55,722 bases of DNA from Lewinellaceae bacterium (GTDB taxonomy: Bacteria > Bacteroidota > Bacteroidia > Chitinophagales > Saprospiraceae): positions 1 to 55,722 of the forward strand of contig CANJPT010000014.1 in NCBI GenBank assembly GCA_947476195.1, written 5' to 3'. Each line of letters opens with the position of its first letter. Positions within the stretch are counted from its first letter, which is position 1. The position numbers and the translations under genes are program-made. Positions 6,383-39,605 of this stretch are shown here, piece by piece. Below the pieces are notes generated by a model. The model was given only the letters and a program-made list of their open reading frames with translations. It searched no databases and was not told the origin of the DNA.

Positions 6383-6404
6383 CTCCTGTTTAAACCACTT
6401 GGAG

Positions 6405-7442
6405 ATGAAAGATAAAAACCAATTATTCAACGATATTTTACTTTACACGACTCCCAACGGCGGTGTTCGTGTAGAGGTTTATCTCGTGGGCGAAACCGTT
6501 TGGCTTACGCAAAAAGCTATTGCCGCTTTGTTTGGGGTGAAAGTGCCTGCGATCAGCAAACATTTGAAAAATATTTTTGAGGAAGGAGAATTGGTTGAAA
6601 ATTCAGTTGTTTCCAAAATGGAAACAACTGCTCTGGACGGAAAATCTTATAAAACTTCATTTTACAACCTTGACGCCATTATTTCAATAGGCTATCGGGT
6701 CAATTCAGTGCAGGCGACGCAGTTTCGTATCTGGGCGACAGGTATGTTGAAAGAATTTATCGTCAAAGGTTTTGCCTTGGATGATGCCCGGCTGAAACAA
6801 GGGAAAGTGCTGTTTGGCAAAGACTATTTCGACGAACTTTTGGAGCGAATCCGGGAGATCAGGGCAAGTGAGCGGCGGTTTTATCAAAAAATTACAGATC
6901 TCTACGCGCTTTCAGCCGATTATGACAAGGATGCTGCCCTGACTAAATCGTTTTTTACGACCGTCCAGAACAAGTTGCATTGGGCAATTTCGGGCAAAAC
7001 AGCGGCCGAAATTATTTACACGGAAGCTGACGCAAGCAAAATCTACATGGGCCTAAAAACCTGGAAAAATGCCCCACAAGGCAAAATCCAAAAATCCGAT
7101 GTCAGCATAGCTAAAAACTACTTGCACGAACAACACATTGGAGAATTGAACCGCATTGTTTCGGCTTATTTGGATTTGGCGGAGAACAATGCCTTGCGCC
7201 AAAGATTAATGCGCATGGAAGATTGGATTAAGTTTTTGGACGCATTTTTACAGCTTTCTAATTATCCTATTTTGACACATAATGGAGGCGTAACTCAATT
7301 GGAGGCAAAATTGAAAGCCGAGATGGAATATGAAGTATATCGAGAGATTCAGGATAAAATTTTCCTGTCTGATTTTGATATGGCGGTGTTAAAGGCTTTG
7401 GAGGGGCAGAAGGGCAAGCAAATTGATGAAGCAGTTGATTGA
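6405..7442 (+). CDS. RhuM family protein
   Basis: A 345-residue member of the RhuM family, named from a Salmonella pathogenicity-island gene and related to phage antirepressor/Fic-associated proteins. The N-terminal part resembles a helix-turn-helix-like recognition region (VWLTQKAIAALFGV, residues about 29-42). The hallmark YNLDAIISIGYRVNS...FRIWAT block is at about 86-112. Biochemical function is not established. ATG 6405 is preferred over TTG 6399. It follows the dipeptidase stop by 22 bp and may be cotranscribed. A perfect 27-bp palindrome lies in the codons for residues about 67-76 (6604-6630), mirrored by similar palindromes in the ORF6N and DinD genes of this window. Confidence 0.9.
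   Translation: MKDKNQLFNDILLYTTPNGGVRVEVYLVGETVWLTQKAIAALFGVKVPAISKHLKNIFEEGELVENSVVSKMETTALDGKSYKTSFYNLDAIISIGYRVNSVQATQFRIWATGMLKEFIVKGFALDDARLKQGKVLFGKDYFDELLERIREIRASERRFYQKITDLYALSADYDKDAALTKSFFTTVQNKLHWAISGKTAAEIIYTEADASKIYMGLKTWKNAPQGKIQKSDVSIAKNYLHEQHIGELNRIVSAYLDLAENNALRQRLMRMEDWIKFLDAFLQLSNYPILTHNGGVTQLEAKLKAEMEYEVYREIQDKIFLSDFDMAVLKALEGQKGKQIDEAVD
6604..6630. repeat. Perfect 12-3-12 palindrome inside the RhuM gene
   Basis: The arms CAGTTGTTTCCA and TGGAAACAACTG are exact reverse complements, separated by AAA. It encodes part of the SVVSKMETT segment between the predicted recognition region and the YNLDAIIS block. Its geometry equals that of the three palindromes in the ORF6N gene at 36098-36190. 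It could be an intragenic operator or an RNA hairpin. Confidence 0.9.
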
Positions 7443-27224: not shown

Positions 27225-27911
27225 TCAATTCCCGCCCTCATTCTCCACGTTTTCTAAGCGGCGTTGAGTCTCTTCCAACAGGCGAAGCTGCTTCTCCTGT
27301 TCTACCAGATTGGTCTCTTGCGACAGTTCATTGTTCGAAATATCCAGCTTGGCTTTCTGTATTTTTGCCTCCCAGCTTGCAATGCTGAGGCGTAGATCAT
27401 CGTTGGTCTTGCTGAGTTTTTTCTGATTGGATTCCAGAGTACTTAGATACGTTTGTTGTGTTTTCAGCTCTTTTCCAATGGCGGCACGGCGTATATCGTA
27501 GTAACATTGCCGAAGCAATCCCAGCATGTCTTCCGTGCTGCGACGATTGTCGTGGCGGTTGAGGAAGTAGCTGCCGGCATCAACCCACACGGCGAGTGAT
27601 GTCTTGACGCCGTCCGTTTCAATCGTAGAATATAGCGTGAATACTTCATCGCCCATAACGCTCGAACGGAGTTTTGTGGCCGTCCATTCACCTTTGCTTT
27701 TTTTAAGTTTTGCGTTGAAATTTTCTTTGGCAAACTTTTTCCAGACATCCTCCACGACACCAGCATCTGTACCGGAAAACTCCATCAGGAAACAAGGCCT
27801 GCGGCCAAATGACATCATTCGTTCCTGTTCTCGTACGGGGTCAAACTGAGCACTCAGTTTCAACGCAAAGGCAGCAAAGATCAGGAGGGGGAAGAGGGCT
27901 TTTTTGTTCAT
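27225..27911 (-). CDS. Exported protein with C-terminal coiled coil, unknown function
   Basis: I do not recognise this 228-residue protein. It has a signal peptide (MNKKALFPLLIFAAFALKLSAQ) and a globular part of about 110 residues. A Gln/Lys/Glu/Leu-rich heptad region follows (about 145-225; KELKTQQTYLSTLESNQKKL, QEKQLRLLEETQRRLENVE) that should form a coiled coil. It ends in an acidic tail. It is expected in the periplasm or at the outer membrane. A TACCTTTG box lies about 110 bp upstream. It is not in an evident operon. Confidence 0.75.
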   Translation of the reverse strand: MNKKALFPLLIFAAFALKLSAQFDPVREQERMMSFGRRPCFLMEFSGTDAGVVEDVWKKFAKENFNAKLKKSKGEWTATKLRSSVMGDEVFTLYSTIETDGVKTSLAVWVDAGSYFLNRHDNRRSTEDMLGLLRQCYYDIRRAAIGKELKTQQTYLSTLESNQKKLSKTNDDLRLSIASWEAKIQKAKLDISNNELSQETNLVEQEKQLRLLEETQRRLENVENEGGN

Positions 27912-34639: not shown

Positions 34640-34864
34640 ATTAAACAGGAGTCATCCCGATTTTTGGGAGTCCTTAGCCTCTGAGAGGCTTAATATTGGT
34701 AGAAAATTGAATTTAGATTTTTGATGGACCTCGGAGAGGTCTAACCTTGGTAAATCTTTATGTTAGACCTCTCCGAGGTCCATGTGCTCTATCATAACAT
34801 AATATCTACCAATATTTAACCTCTCCGAGGTCAATGTCAAAAATTGGGATGACTCATGTTTAAT
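34640..34864. mobile_element. Palindromic miniature element C, copy 2
   Basis: The 19-bp ends ATTAAACAGGAGTCATCCC and the complement of ATTAAACATGAGTCATCCC differ once. Inside are four small palindromes of the type ACCTCTCCGAGGT. It overlaps the hemC 3' end and supplies the last codons and stop of hemC. Copy 1 is at 26893-27089. Confidence 0.85.
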
Positions 34865-35733
34865 TGTGCTACTAATTTTTCCGCCATTCCGAAACTGGTG
34901 CTGGAAGAAAGCCGCGTCCGGCGCAATTGACCCTCTATTTCGCAGGCTGCGAAAGCGTGGTAATTGCCTGTAGCATCGCGTTCGCAATAGACGCCGAGCG
35001 GGAGTTGGCATCCTCCTTCCATGAGTTGGAGTACCCGGCGTTCTACATTGGTACAAGCGGAGACCTCCGGGTGATGTAATTTCTTCAAAATGTGTCGGGT
35101 ATTGGTATCGTCGCGGTTAGTTTGCCATGCCAGCACGCCTTGGGCCGGGGCTGGCACGAACTCGCGTGCGGGCAAAACCATTACTTCAAAATCTGACAGA
35201 TCCAGCCCCAAACGCTCCACCCCTGCTGCTGCGAGAAAGATAGCGTCAAAATCACCTGCACGAAGCTTTTCGAGTCGGGTGGGTACATTGCCCCGGATGT
35301 CCTTCAATTGCAAATCCGGTCTGAAGGCGATCAACTGCGCCTTGCGCCGATTGGCTGAAGTGCCTACGATGGCATTGGGCGACAATTTTAAAAGCGCTTT
35401 TTCTGCGTAAAAGTCTTTACGGATGATGAGCAGGTCCGAAGGATTGTGGCGGTATGAAACCGCTGTGATCGCCAATCCTTCCGGCTGACTGGTAGGCAGG
35501 TCTTTCATGGAATGCACGGCTAAGTCCACTTCGCCGCGAAGGAGTGCATCTTCGATCTCTTTGGTGAAAAAACCTTTGCCTTCGAGCTTGTCAAAGCCCA
35601 GGTGCTGCACCAGATCGCCCTGTGTTTTGATAATGACCAATTCACTCTCCACCCCGATACGGGCGAGTTCGGCTTGGGTGAACACTGCTTGCCAAAGGGC
35701 AAGCTTGCTGCCACGGGTTCCTATTTTTAACAT
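34837..35733 (-). CDS. hemC: Hydroxymethylbilane synthase (porphobilinogen deaminase)
   Basis: This 298-residue cytoplasmic enzyme joins four porphobilinogens into hydroxymethylbilane, a step of tetrapyrrole synthesis. Signatures are KIGTRGSKLALWQA at the start, AVHSMKDLPTS, GNVPTRLEKL, and LMEGGCQLPLGVY with the Cys that carries the dipyrromethane cofactor. The last residues (MSHPNF) and the stop are encoded by the end of miniature element C, so the native C-terminus was replaced; the core is intact. The start is 24 bp downstream of the ORF6N gene stop; CGACCTTTG in the spacer may be a weak promoter. No other hem gene is nearby. Confidence 0.95.
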   Translation of the reverse strand: MLKIGTRGSKLALWQAVFTQAELARIGVESELVIIKTQGDLVQHLGFDKLEGKGFFTKEIEDALLRGEVDLAVHSMKDLPTSQPEGLAITAVSYRHNPSDLLIIRKDFYAEKALLKLSPNAIVGTSANRRKAQLIAFRPDLQLKDIRGNVPTRLEKLRAGDFDAIFLAAAGVERLGLDLSDFEVMVLPAREFVPAPAQGVLAWQTNRDDTNTRHILKKLHHPEVSACTNVERRVLQLMEGGCQLPLGVYCERDATGNYHAFAACEIEGQLRRTRLSSSTSFGMAEKLVAQLNMSHPNF

Positions 35734-35757: not shown

Positions 35758-36372
35758 TTAATCTTCCTTTTGGAATCCGATGGGACGGCGGGTTTGCCAA
35801 GGATTGGAGCTGGGTTCGAGTCCGGCGATCTCGGCGGTGCGGGCTTGATTTTGTTCGCCGAGCCAGTGTAGCACCTCGTGGATATCAGCGATGTCTTTAC
35901 CGGTTTTGGCTTCCAGTTCAGTTATTTTTTGAGCAAGTTCGGTATAGGTGAGGGCATAATGACGCAGTTTAACAAAGGCCCGCATGATGGCGATGTTAAC
36001 CTGGATTGCTTTTTTGCTGTGGAGTACAGAGGAGAGCATTGCCACACCAAGCTCTGTGAAGGCGTAGGGTAGGGATTTCCCCTCACGGTGCTTTTGAGAT
36101 GTGGTCACAGATTGTGACCACATCATGCCATCTGAACCGGTCACAATTTGTGACCGGTTCGAATCTAAGGTCACAATTTGTGACCTTAGAGATTGCCATT
36201 CCTCTTCCGAAAGTTGAAACAAGAAGTCTTCCGGAAAATGCTCAATATTGCGTTTAACCGCCTGATTAAGCGCTTTTGTTTGCACTTCGTAGAGAATTGC
36301 CAGGTCGAAGTCAAACATCACACGCTGGCCGCGCAGCGTATGAATCTTGGATTGAATGATTTGAATATCCAT
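35758..36372 (-). CDS. ORF6N-domain protein (phage antirepressor-like)
   Basis: This 204-residue protein has an ORF6N/KilA-N-type domain. The start MDIQIIQSKIHTLRGQRVMF and FDFDLAILYEVQTKALNQAV is followed by HFPEDFLFQLSEEEW, and later by LPYAFTELGVAMLSSVL (about 110-126). A short coiled coil follows (KITELEAKTGKD). Between residues about 61 and 92 the sequence repeats SQIVT-like motifs, encoded by three perfect palindromes. Such proteins are common in phages and bacterial accessory DNA; the molecular function is not proven, though DNA binding is likely. It precedes hemC by 24 bp. Confidence 0.88.
   Translation of the reverse strand: MDIQIIQSKIHTLRGQRVMFDFDLAILYEVQTKALNQAVKRNIEHFPEDFLFQLSEEEWQSLRSQIVTLDSNRSQIVTGSDGMMWSQSVTTSQKHREGKSLPYAFTELGVAMLSSVLHSKKAIQVNIAIMRAFVKLRHYALTYTELAQKITELEAKTGKDIADIHEVLHWLGEQNQARTAEIAGLEPSSNPWQTRRPIGFQKED
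36098..36190. repeat. Three perfect 12-3-12 palindromes inside the ORF6N gene
   Basis: The palindromes are 36098-36124, 36134-36160 and 36164-36190. All share the core GGTCACA-N3-TGTGACC. The outer five bases differ (GATGT, GAACC, TCTAA) yet each is perfectly mirrored on the other arm. They encode the SQIVT / SQSVT repeats. Retained pairing despite different bases points to selection on the palindrome or to copying of one arm from the other. Confidence 0.93.
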
Positions 36373-36457
36373 TGGTAACTTTGGTTTTTGAACCGTTGAT
36401 GGGCTTCAGCAACGATATGGTTCTTACCAAAGTTAAGTAATAAATCGCATTATGCGA

Positions 36458-36490
36458 GGTTACCTTATCACAATTTGTGATGAGGTAACC
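36458..36490. promoter_or_regulatory. 15-3-15 palindrome upstream of the ORF6N gene
   Basis: GGTTACCTTATCACA-ATT-TGTGATGAGGTAACC has one mismatch between arms. Its centre TCACAATTTGTGA equals that of two of the intragenic palindromes. It lies 86 bp upstream of the ORF6N ATG and 9 bp after the RND pump stop, so it may be an operator for the former, a terminator-like structure for the latter, or both. Confidence 0.75.
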
Positions 36491-36498
36491 CTGTAAGT

Positions 36499-39400
36499 TC
36501 ACTCCTTACTCCAGGGCGCGGAACTCCGTTGCTTCCCACTCAAAAACAGGTACATCGCCGGAATTACAAACAAAGTCAGCACCAATGAGAACAACAATCC
36601 ACCCACCACCACCACACCAAGACCGATGCGGCTCGTGCTGGCAGCGCCCAAAGAAAGGGCAATGGGTAAAGCACCAAGTGCGGTGGCGAGCGTGGTCATG
36701 AGTATGGGACGCAGACGGGCTTGTGCAGCTTCCCACACAGCCTGGTTTTTGGGCATCCCTGCATCGCGTTTTTGATTGGCAAATTCTACGATCAGGATCC
36801 CGTTTTTCGTCACCAGTCCTATGAGCATAATCATGCCTATCTGGGAAAAAATATTGAAAGTATTGCCAGTGACCGATAAACTGAGATATGCTCCTGCAAT
36901 GGCGAGCGGCACGGTAAGCATGATGATCAATGGATCGCGAAAACTTTCAAACTGCGCGGCAAGAATGAGATAAATGAGCATCAGCGCTAGCAGAAAGGCG
37001 AAAGAGGTATTGCCACTACTTTCTTTAAAATCACGGGAAGAACCCGTAAGATCGGTCTGAAATGATTCGTCGAGTACCTGATCGGCAATGCGTTCCATCG
37101 CTTGAATGCCTTCGCCAATCGTTTTTCCAGGGGCCGGAGCAGCACTAATAGTAGCGGATTTGTATCGGTTATGGTGATAAAGTTGAGGTGGGCTGCTCGT
37201 CTCATTGAAGTGAACGATATTATCGAGTTGTACCATTTCACTTTTTGCATTGCGGACGTAGAGCGAGGCAAGATCCAGTGGTTCGTCGCGGTTGGAGCGG
37301 TCAACCTGGCCGATTACCTGGTATTGGCGGCCATTTTTAAGGAAATAGCCGAACCGTCGACCGGAGAGTGCTAATTGTAAGGTTTGGCTTACATCCAGTA
37401 CGCTCACCCCTAATTCGGCAGCTTTCGGTCGGTCGATTATAACCTGTAATTCTGGTTTGCTAAATTTCAAATTCACATCTACACTCGCAAAAGAGGGATC
37501 TTTTCGCGCTTCCTCGAGGAATTTTGGAACCACCGCTCTTAGCTTTTCAAAATCCAGGGTCTGTATCACGAACTGTATAGGGAGGCCACGCCCAAATCCG
37601 ATGGAAATTGTTTCCTCCTGGTTGGGAAACATTCGCGCTTCGGGCATTTTTTTGGTCATGGACAGTATTTGATTGTAGATCTGCATCTGGCTCCGATTGC
37701 GTTCATTTGGATCTTTGAGCAGGAGGCTGACAACGCCCGAATTGGTGCTGCCATTGCCATAGCTAGGTGCGGAGATGCCAAATACCATACTCTTTTCCGG
37801 AATCGAATCCATGATTTTTTGAGAAAGACCATAGATAATGCGCTCCATTTTATCGTAGTCCGTTCCTTCTGGTGCAGTCACGTTGGTACGAATAATACTA
37901 CGGTCTTCCAATGGGGCAAGCTCGCTTTTTATGGTACCCTGAAAATACCAGATCATACCAAAACAGGCGACAAGGATCACTAGACTTAACCATTTGAAAT
38001 TCATAAAGGTGCGTAAGGCGTTGCCGTACACTCGGTCCATTCCTTTAAAAAACGGCTCAGTTGCCAGGTAGAACCGACCATTTGTTGTCACGTTACCACC
38101 TAATTTAACATTCAAAACGGGGGTAAGGGTCAGCGAAACAAATGCCGAAATCAGTACTGCGCCAGCCACCACAATACCGAACTCACGGAATAACCGACCG
38201 GTAAATCCTTGCAGGAAAATAACAGGGATAAACACTACTGCGAGGGTGATAGATGTACTGATGACCGCAAAAAAGATCTCTTTAGTGCCTTCTCTCGCCG
38301 CGGTCCATTTGTCCATTCCGGCTTCCCGTTTTTTGAAAATGTTTTCGGTCACTACGATCCCATCATCTACTACAAGACCTGTAGCCAAGACGATGGCAAG
38401 TAAGGTCAACACGTTGATACTAAACCCAAATAGCCACATCAGAAAAAAGGCTCCGATGAGCGATACAGGGATGTCTATGAGCGGGCGTAGTGCAATGATC
38501 CAGTTTCGGAAAAACAAATAGATGATGAGTACCACCAGGCCGATGGCAATGAAAAGATTTTCGGTCACCTCACTTATGGCACGCCGTATGAAACGCGTTT
38601 TATCAATGCCCACCGTCATCACAATATCGGGCGGAAGGTCTTTTTGAATCTGTTCGTAACGGCGGTAAAATTCATCGGTGATATCTACCCAATTACTGCC
38701 TGGTTGTGGAATTACCGCGAGCGACACGCCTTGCACAAGGTTGCGTCGCGCGCCGGTTTCCTCATTGTCAGGACCTAAAATAGCTTCGCCGATGTCTTTG
38801 AAATGAATGGAAGTACTTCCAACCTGCCGGATGATCATGTTATTGAAATCCTCTTCCGTTTGCAAACGGCCAAAGGTTTTTACCGTCATTTCAGTGACAT
38901 CGCCGCGCAATTTTCCGCCGGGTAGTTCTACGTTTTCCCGACTTAAGGCCGAGAAAACATCCTGGGCGGTAAGGCCGAAGGCATTCATTTTGGCTGGATC
39001 CATCCAAAGGCGCATGGCCGGGAGTTTAGAGCCAAATACATTGACCGCAGATACTCCGGGAATGGTCTGAATTTTCTCCCGGATCACATTTTCGGCGTAG
39101 TCAGAGAGCTCCATGATGCTGCGGGTACTGCTCTGAATGGGCATCATAAGGATAGGATCTCCGCTCGCATCGGCTTTGGTCACTACAGGCGGGGCATCAA
39201 TATCCTGCGGGAGATTGCGTTGGGCCTGGCTGACCTTGTCGCGCACGTCGTTGGCTGCTTGTTCGAGATCAATACCCAGGTCGAACTCAATGGTAATATT
39301 GCTGTTGCCCAAGGCAGAGGAACTGGAAATAGTGCGGATACCAGCGATGCCGTTGATGGAGCGTTCGAGTGGTTCAGTTACCTGACTTTCAATGACTTCA

Positions 39401-39567
39401 GCACTGGCTCCGGAGTATTTGGTGCTTACAGTAATGTTGGGCGGATCAATCGCAGGATACTCCCGCACACCTAAGAAAATGTAGCCCACCACACCAAAAA
39501 ATATGATGAGAATACTCATCACAGTGGCAAAGACGGGGCGGCGGAGGGAGAAGTCGGGTAGGCTCAT
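36499..39567 (-). CDS. RND efflux pump inner-membrane subunit (AcrB/HAE1 family)
   Basis: This 1,022-residue proton-driven pump has 12 TM helices and two large periplasmic loops. It starts MSLPDFSLRRPVFATVMSILI, typical for the family. In the TM4 region the sequence LVVDDGIVVTENIFKKRE has the paired Asp residues used for proton relay, and TM10/11 has GLVTKNGILIVEFANQKR. ATG 39567 is chosen over 39585 by family alignment from memory. The membrane-fusion protein and TolC-type channel are not adjacent, so the pump probably uses partners coded elsewhere. The O-antigen ligase is 38 bp upstream on the same strand. Confidence 0.92.
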   Translation of the reverse strand: MSLPDFSLRRPVFATVMSILIIFFGVVGYIFLGVREYPAIDPPNITVSTKYSGASAEVIESQVTEPLERSINGIAGIRTISSSSALGNSNITIEFDLGIDLEQAANDVRDKVSQAQRNLPQDIDAPPVVTKADASGDPILMMPIQSSTRSIMELSDYAENVIREKIQTIPGVSAVNVFGSKLPAMRLWMDPAKMNAFGLTAQDVFSALSRENVELPGGKLRGDVTEMTVKTFGRLQTEEDFNNMIIRQVGSTSIHFKDIGEAILGPDNEETGARRNLVQGVSLAVIPQPGSNWVDITDEFYRRYEQIQKDLPPDIVMTVGIDKTRFIRRAISEVTENLFIAIGLVVLIIYLFFRNWIIALRPLIDIPVSLIGAFFLMWLFGFSINVLTLLAIVLATGLVVDDGIVVTENIFKKREAGMDKWTAAREGTKEIFFAVISTSITLAVVFIPVIFLQGFTGRLFREFGIVVAGAVLISAFVSLTLTPVLNVKLGGNVTTNGRFYLATEPFFKGMDRVYGNALRTFMNFKWLSLVILVACFGMIWYFQGTIKSELAPLEDRSIIRTNVTAPEGTDYDKMERIIYGLSQKIMDSIPEKSMVFGISAPSYGNGSTNSGVVSLLLKDPNERNRSQMQIYNQILSMTKKMPEARMFPNQEETISIGFGRGLPIQFVIQTLDFEKLRAVVPKFLEEARKDPSFASVDVNLKFSKPELQVIIDRPKAAELGVSVLDVSQTLQLALSGRRFGYFLKNGRQYQVIGQVDRSNRDEPLDLASLYVRNAKSEMVQLDNIVHFNETSSPPQLYHHNRYKSATISAAPAPGKTIGEGIQAMERIADQVLDESFQTDLTGSSRDFKESSGNTSFAFLLALMLIYLILAAQFESFRDPLIIMLTVPLAIAGAYLSLSVTGNTFNIFSQIGMIMLIGLVTKNGILIVEFANQKRDAGMPKNQAVWEAAQARLRPILMTTLATALGALPIALSLGAASTSRIGLGVVVVGGLLFSLVLTLFVIPAMYLFLSGKQRSSAPWSKE

Positions 39568-39605
39568 AGGTGAAGTTTTAGTCATTAAGACATTGGGGTA
39601 TTGAT

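Follow-up and report, generated by a model that had tools for sequence, protein, structure and literature searches.

The window (the whole stretch of DNA that was analysed, 55,722 nucleotides) carries an ORF6N gene on the reverse strand, between an open reading frame that we take to be hemC-like and another that presumably encodes an RND-type transporter. The ORF6N protein scores 111.3 bits against the PF10543 profile, above the curated cut-off of 27.8, and a RhuM gene is found elsewhere in the window. The features discussed below are as follows, with the palindromes of the ORF6N locus given as read on the forward strand.

6399..7442, forward strand: RhuM gene (PF13310), 347 aa, 358.4 bits against a curated cut-off of 33.7
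6604..6630, no strand assigned: palindrome of 12 pairs within the RhuM coding region, CAGTTGTTTCCAAAATGGAAACAACTG
34837..35733, reverse strand: open reading frame, presumably hemC-like, whose protein was used as a query in relatives
35758..36372, reverse strand: open reading frame, ORF6N gene, 204 aa (PF10543, E 2.9e-32; PHROG anti-repressor, 1.2e-25; PADLOC PDC-S05, 3.3e-52)
36098..36124, forward-strand reading: internal palindrome 3, 12-3-12, perfect, an extra in-frame copy coding for MWSQSVTTS
36134..36160, forward-strand reading: internal palindrome 2, 13-1-13, perfect, an extra in-frame copy coding for NRSQIVTGS
36164..36190, forward-strand reading: internal palindrome 1, 13-1-13, perfect, at the family's usual place, coding for LRSQIVTL
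36458..36490, forward-strand reading: upstream palindrome, 16-1-16 with one mismatched pair, RNA fold of -17.4 kcal/mol
36499..39585, reverse strand: open reading frame, which we take to be an RND-type transporter gene

An earlier note on this DNA had described three perfect 27-bp palindromes within 93 bp of the coding region and a fourth (15-3-15, one mismatch) 86 bp upstream of the start. All four are present; two of the internal copies reach 13-1-13, so that the 12-3-12 description is included, and the upstream copy extends to 16-1-16, its near edge lying 86 bp from the ATG at 36372. The shared motif named in that note, TCACA-N3-TGTGA, occurs in every copy (four matches in the window vs. 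0.04 expected, a number reached in 0 of 100 shuffles), and the outer arms do vary among the four copies while still pairing within each. Within the genome (4.76 Mb), the three internal sites are the sole occurrences of the longer form GTCACA-N3-TGTGAC, and a reversed control pattern gave no match there. Beside the extra internal copies, the gene's ORF6N match stretches over 109 residues for 86 profile positions. Altogether, six odd-centred palindromes of at least 10 pairs were detected in the 55.7-kb window, namely the four of the ORF6N locus, that of the RhuM gene, centred on 6617, and another at 27289; the latter has 11 pairs, AACAGGCGAAGCTGCTTCTCCTGTT, and is of a type other than that of ORF6N. 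The upstream palindrome was also considered as an intrinsic terminator, which was ruled out by the lack of a T-run after the stem on the gene's strand.

ORF6N genes were collected from 60 relatives and from a scan of one genome per species (84,980 species), from which the best 80 of 249 loci were taken. Among 108 distinct ORF6N open frames of at least 120 aa from many phyla, a palindrome of at least 10 pairs was found in the aligned region of 102, compared with 1.0% of draws under a synonymous-codon null (100 synonymous re-drawings per gene). The six genes below this threshold comprise L064, with nine pairs in its first frame, and L010, L017, L040, L078 and L081, with five or six; the 13-bp core is nevertheless kept in L017, L040 and L078 despite their short palindromes. 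In 100 of the 103 genes with at least nine pairs, the centre coincides with codon position 1, and in the other three (L044, L049 and L065) the palindrome lies in another frame, where the same DNA codes for a different peptide. Palindromes of at least nine pairs were likewise present in 74 of 80 additional ORF6N loci (50 viral contigs and 30 Bacteroidota genomes), a figure that scores a palindrome anywhere in the open frame and may include some chance cases, and in 11 of 12 plasmid or phage ORF6N records, the exception being a Legionella plasmid. Some intact ORF6N genes reach 18–20 pairs (L223, L228, L242 and L249).

Across the 103 internal sites, the pairs k=2–13 are complementary in 87–103 sites and complementarity drops to 45 at k=14, while the innermost pair (k=1) is complementary in 76; the ORF6N element is thus 27 bp long, with arms of approximately 13 bp. 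The earlier note had named a lack of covariation among homologues as a refuting outcome; this was examined, and the arms were found to covary strongly: the covariation score of 99 aligned sites was 0.539, compared with 0.166 for shuffled sites (0 of 500 shuffles as high) and at most 0.113 with slid partners, and 225 cells were changed on both sides vs. 46 in shuffles. The number of pairs showing any double change (10 vs. 9.0) was not beyond chance, since 138 of 500 shuffles reach 10. In 518 gene pairs that are at least 62% identical when the loop is disregarded (pairs that are not independent of one another), palindrome positions were changed on both sides in 1605 cases and on one side in 259, against 2216 and 2978, respectively, in control columns. 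The two-sided changes extend to the encoded amino acids, as in TCA..GTG (S..V), TCG..GCG (S..A), TGC..GGC (C..G), TTC..GGA (F..G) and TTT..GAA (F..E). The claim that coding constraint cannot produce this pattern is therefore upheld by the codon null, by covariation relative to shuffles and slides and by the three other-frame genes; constraint at the protein level alone is rejected by the same null, by L044, L049 and L065 and by the amino-acid changes on both sides.

The suggestion that hairpins in the mRNA are involved was assessed through the mismatches. In 185 internal and 55 flanking ORF6N sites (a set restricted to those that have CA and TG at k=2,3), G.T mismatches, which form a wobble pair in the message, account for 26 and A.C mismatches, which do not, for 29 of 2160 cells; a stem tolerant of G.U pairs, as expected of an RNA hairpin, is thus not seen. 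The corresponding numbers were 0 and 1 of 171 cells at 23 RhuM loci, and 4 and 8 of 279 cells at 37 Bro-N loci. Because G.T is no commoner than A.C, whereas an RNA stem should tolerate G.T more, these sequence comparisons point to a constraint on DNA, rather than on mRNA, as what keeps the arms complementary. The mRNA suggestion is accordingly disfavored, although folding as RNA would be favorable for each of the five window palindromes (energies from -15.3 to -19.6 kcal/mol, with z between -5.2 and -7.4). A search of Rfam gave nothing over threshold, the one match being far below its threshold.

To place these sites in a genomic context, a pattern of the commonest ORF6N cores was scanned in the 60 relatives, giving 16 sites in 11 genomes, while a control pattern gave no site in the same 60. 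Twelve of the sites lie inside ORF6N matches and two within about 400 bp of one (G006 and G033). Another (L123, at about 98995 of contig C61 in G008) adjoins what appears by eye to be a decayed ORF6N gene missed by tblastn, with an 18-pair palindrome, and the last, in G055, is not a palindrome and lies in a genome without an ORF6N match. In these relatives, the commonest palindrome forms are almost restricted to ORF6N genes or their remnants.

Copies also occur beside the genes. Flanking copies that have the core cluster near the gene: the start is no more than 200 bp away for 37 of the 45 upstream copies, as is the stop for 12 of the 15 downstream copies. In 27 of 47 cases, their core letters k4–k5 are those of an internal copy in that locus, compared with 16.8 for random loci (p 0.0004); at k8–13, copies that share a locus resemble one another no more than copies from different loci do. 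Upstream copies are found at a minority of ORF6N loci, at 2 of 23 RhuM loci and at 6 of 37 Bro-N loci, so the emphasis that the earlier note had placed on an upstream operator does not generalize: it is the internal copy that is constant. Extra palindromes in or around the gene occur at some loci, including the window, L085 and L103. At L258, four ORF6N-type palindromes (1605, 1639, 1673 and 1707) follow one another at intervals of exactly 34 bp, inside or ahead of an ORF6N gene, and have differing arms.

Decayed copies of the gene were encountered as well. C-terminal ORF6N remnants are recognizable by eye 5' of hemC in G010 and G017, and L143, L145 and L147, likewise judged by eye, are ORF6N remnants before hemC in relatives; the ORF6N gene seems to be old at the hemC place and to have been repeatedly lost. 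In G028, the ORF6N gene is shortened and its palindrome intact, and the broken genes L022, L031, L123 and L131 keep 18 or 19 pairs. A palindrome of the ORF6N type is missing from about 7 of the 28 loci that hold a remnant or fragment, two of these 28 being the same place.

Palindromes at a comparable place were found in two further domain families. For RhuM genes of Bacteroidota (24 of 30 loci were counted, with L389, L393, L405, L407, L410 and L411 left out), at least nine pairs were present in 20 of 24 (null 13.5%), with p ≤ 0.01 in 16 of 24 and the best centre at domain offset 11–14 in 23 of 24. Bro-N domains at large gave 8 of 30 in Bacteroidota (null 3.4%), all centred at offset 114–151. 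In a viral Bro-N subfamily (51 of 55 loci used, 44 distinct), the proportion was 27 of 44 (null 3.6%), with p ≤ 0.01 in 22 of 44 and the centre at offset 109–151 in 42 of 44; the query for this set came from the palindrome-bearing subfamily, which biases the sample, so that 8 of 30 is the fairer figure for Bro-N at large. The cores differ by family: CAA-N-TTG in ORF6N, mostly ACAA-N-TTGT or CGA-N5-TCG in Bro-N and often GGAA-N-TTCC in RhuM. Among controls, KilA-N domains had at least nine pairs in 1 of 22 and at least 10 in 0 of 22 (null 0.9%), and palindromes were found at 2 of 30 hemC loci, one of them being the ORF6N remnant L147; the hemC count used a fixed stretch per locus, which missed the gene in several control loci. 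pRha did not serve as a control, all six of its weak matches (five under the cut-off) falling at ORF6N genes, and the single P22_AR_N and AntA loci, too few to judge, had no palindrome of at least seven pairs in the domain.

The encoded stretches may also correspond structurally. In the predicted ORF6N fold (helix 73–82, strand 97–100, pLDDT below 50 at 86–88) and the predicted Bro-N fold (helix 25–38, strand 48–54, well ordered), the palindrome codes for the stretch after the helix and before or into the strand. Profile comparison aligned the Bro-N and RhuM loops (E 0.004), found nothing between ORF6N and Bro-N (hhalign, E 0.46) and aligned ORF6N with RhuM at E 0.05 in a part outside the loop; on the basis of the predicted folds, the ORF6N loop looks like an equivalent of the other two. 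Searches of the PDB gave eight weak matches by sequence (best E 0.14) and none at E ≤ 0.001 by fold (best Ski/Dachshund, at 0.15), while a viral fold library gave nine at E ≤ 0.001, annotated as KilA-N, antirepressor, regulatory, uncharacterised or nameless, with Bro-N appearing only from 0.02.

One set of alleles is particularly informative. The ORF6N genes L041, L051 and L053 occupy one common chromosomal place, preceded by a gene that we take to be aminotransferase-like, and their flanks (from 400 bp ahead of the start codon up to nt 78, and again from nt 250 as far as about nt 489) differ at 0–4 positions per 30-column window, except for one such window with seven differences (nt 18, L041–L051). 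Between these near-identical flanks, nt 78–250, where the palindrome (centred on nt 195) and the helix region lie, shows 5–17 differences per 30-column window. Of the 12 palindrome pairs, five differ between L051 and L053, five between L041 and L053 and seven between L041 and L051, all on both sides and none on one side. At the protein level, 87–90 of 92 residues are identical in the C-terminal parts and 4–7 of 21 in the loops. Because the middle differs between near-identical flanks, we read these alignments as a joint replacement of the helix region and the palindrome. Further gene pairs combine like C-termini with unlike middles, which are only roughly aligned. A test for crossing-over at the palindrome, based on the correlation of pair identity between gene segments, found the second N-terminal segment weakly correlated with all others (0.17–0.19). 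The three alleles all diverge past the stop codon; L051, L053 and L055 were seen to have wholly different DNA there despite near-identical upstream DNA, and extra palindromes occur in this post-stop DNA.

Taken together, we assign a probability of roughly 50% to the reading that the palindrome is a DNA site of the ORF6N gene itself, with arms kept complementary by a constraint on DNA rather than on mRNA or protein, and most likely bound by the gene's own product, which limits its own transcription. The ORF6N product, probably in dimeric form, would bind the palindrome that its gene contains, and the bound protein would limit transcription through autorepression or as a roadblock, the site being encoded at a predicted poorly ordered loop after the helix, a place able to tolerate a palindrome. 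Since helix region and site were replaced together in one natural allele set, the two may constitute a self-contained, exchangeable specificity cassette that carries its own operator. Presence, place, covariation, DNA signature, near-restriction in relatives and joint replacement at one locus are observed; from these we infer binding, dimerisation and repression by ORF6N. As in an autogenous operator, a symmetric site is tied to the regulator's gene, and own-product binding appears to be favored by the joint replacement, the family-specific cores, the core agreement within loci and the matches to phage anti-repressors. Binding of the protein to its own gene, as the earlier note had proposed, is therefore the best-supported mechanism, while the upstream operator that formed part of that proposal is not general. 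Against self-binding stand the outer arms, which differ among copies and still pair, a symmetry that a dimer reading only the core would not keep, as well as the minority of upstream copies, the low Bro-N count (8 of 30) and the six short palindromes among 108 ORF6N genes; the core agreement within loci could also stem from local duplication. A broader version, which we hold more tentatively, takes in RhuM and part of Bro-N as well as ORF6N: the DNA encoding the loop beside the DNA-reading helix would be the protein's own target, and helix and target would form one exchangeable unit. If so, a change of specificity by recombination would always bring the matching site, and the encoded loop itself may take part in reading the palindrome.

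Because a core-only dimer leaves the variable, symmetric outer arms unexplained, the main rival is that the palindrome works by its shape. The DNA would form a hairpin or cruciform whose tip is constant (CAA-N-TTG in ORF6N) and whose stem, about 12 bp long, could have any sequence; it would be read by the ORF6N protein, or by some other protein specific for such structures, in regulation, replication or recombination. This possibility, which we regard as unlikely though clearly ahead of the remaining ones, would explain why the outer arms vary among the copies of one locus and still pair, with k8–13 no likelier to agree within a locus, why two-sided changes outnumber one-sided ones so strongly between relatives and why G.T and A.C mismatches are equally rare. 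A protein footprint would, however, equally account for the constant core and for the abrupt end at k=13, the cores agree within loci beyond chance, and palindromes of about 27 bp are not known to extrude easily in the cell.

Three other explanations are each given little credence. A hairpin in the coding region of the mRNA that controls translation or mRNA decay is improbable: the favorable RNA folds of the five window palindromes are offset by the missing G.T excess in ORF6N, RhuM and Bro-N, by the innermost pair, which would lie in the RNA loop and yet is complementary in most internal sites, and by the lack of an Rfam family over threshold. We find it just as hard to credit a mobile palindromic repeat that spreads among ORF6N genes and their flanks without a function for the gene; extra copies in the window, L085, L103 and L258 would suit such an element, but nearly all family members have the palindrome at one place, rather than a mixture of presence and absence, and the sites in the 60 relatives are at ORF6N genes or remnants, bar one non-palindromic match. 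Least probable, by a small step, is a mutational process (template switching between the arms) that keeps them alike without selection. The great excess of double over single changes and the long palindromes of the broken genes L022, L031, L123 and L131 agree with it; such a process should, however, affect any gene, contrary to the KilA-N and hemC controls, and place and core are family-specific, intact genes also reach 18–20 pairs and roughly a quarter of remnant or fragment loci have no palindrome.

Several known systems offer partial parallels. Autogenous operators lie within or near a regulator's own gene, and the ORF6N palindrome resembles them in its symmetry and in that the DNA-binding protein encoded by the gene would bind to it; it differs in lying within the stretch that codes for the DNA-binding domain, at a single position family-wide and across phyla, where it shapes the amino acids. 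REP elements with RAYT genes are palindromes tied to one gene family, as at ORF6N, but the ORF6N palindromes are not scattered through the genome and have a constant copy inside the gene. With three sites of the strict pattern in 4.76 Mb and 16 of the wider one in 60 genomes, classification as a REP element or genome-wide repeat is not supported. Rickettsia palindromic elements are palindromic DNA read in frame within proteins, as is the ORF6N palindrome, which by contrast is about 27 bp long and nearly universal at one place in one domain type; insertion of the Rickettsia kind into unrelated genes was rejected since the sites, scanned with ORF6N-type patterns only, are at ORF6N genes or remnants. 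RNA hairpins of the boxB or coat-protein type share the fixed tip and variable paired stem, and the ORF6N palindrome differs from them in having no wobble signature.

By profile, the genes studied here belong to the phage anti-repressors (ORF6N, PF10543; Bro-N, PF02498; RhuM, PF13310; PHROG 4792). The window protein (E 3e-52) and L101 (E 9e-61) also match the models of PDC-S05, a PADLOC phage defence candidate, a label that does not involve the palindrome. This label is in use in PMC12988326, and passages of PMC4257102 and PMC12988326 contain no description of an ORF6N palindrome. More generally, no mention of palindromes within ORF6N, Bro-N or RhuM anti-repressor genes was found in a body of literature with few subscription papers and no bioRxiv preprints, in line with the earlier note's remark on ORF6N genes. 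The coding-sequence palindrome, conserved in a protein family across phyla, plasmids and phages, is strong enough to steer the choice of amino acids, and anyone aligning the proteins would mistake this constraint for coevolution of residues (SQIVT, SQIAT, CQIGT and FQIGT). If the product does bind, these poorly understood antirepressor and defence-associated genes would gain a directly testable mechanism, and each gene would name its own target, a 27-bp site that can be ordered from the sequence alone.

The plasmid-borne members show some further features. The ORF6N genes L130, L133 and L136 are located immediately after site-specific integrase genes. In L140, from Treponema saccharophilum plasmid pTS1, the palindrome centre is AAA-N-TTT instead of CAA-N-TTG, and the ORF6N gene has a methyltransferase, a winged-helix regulator and a restriction subunit S gene as neighbors.
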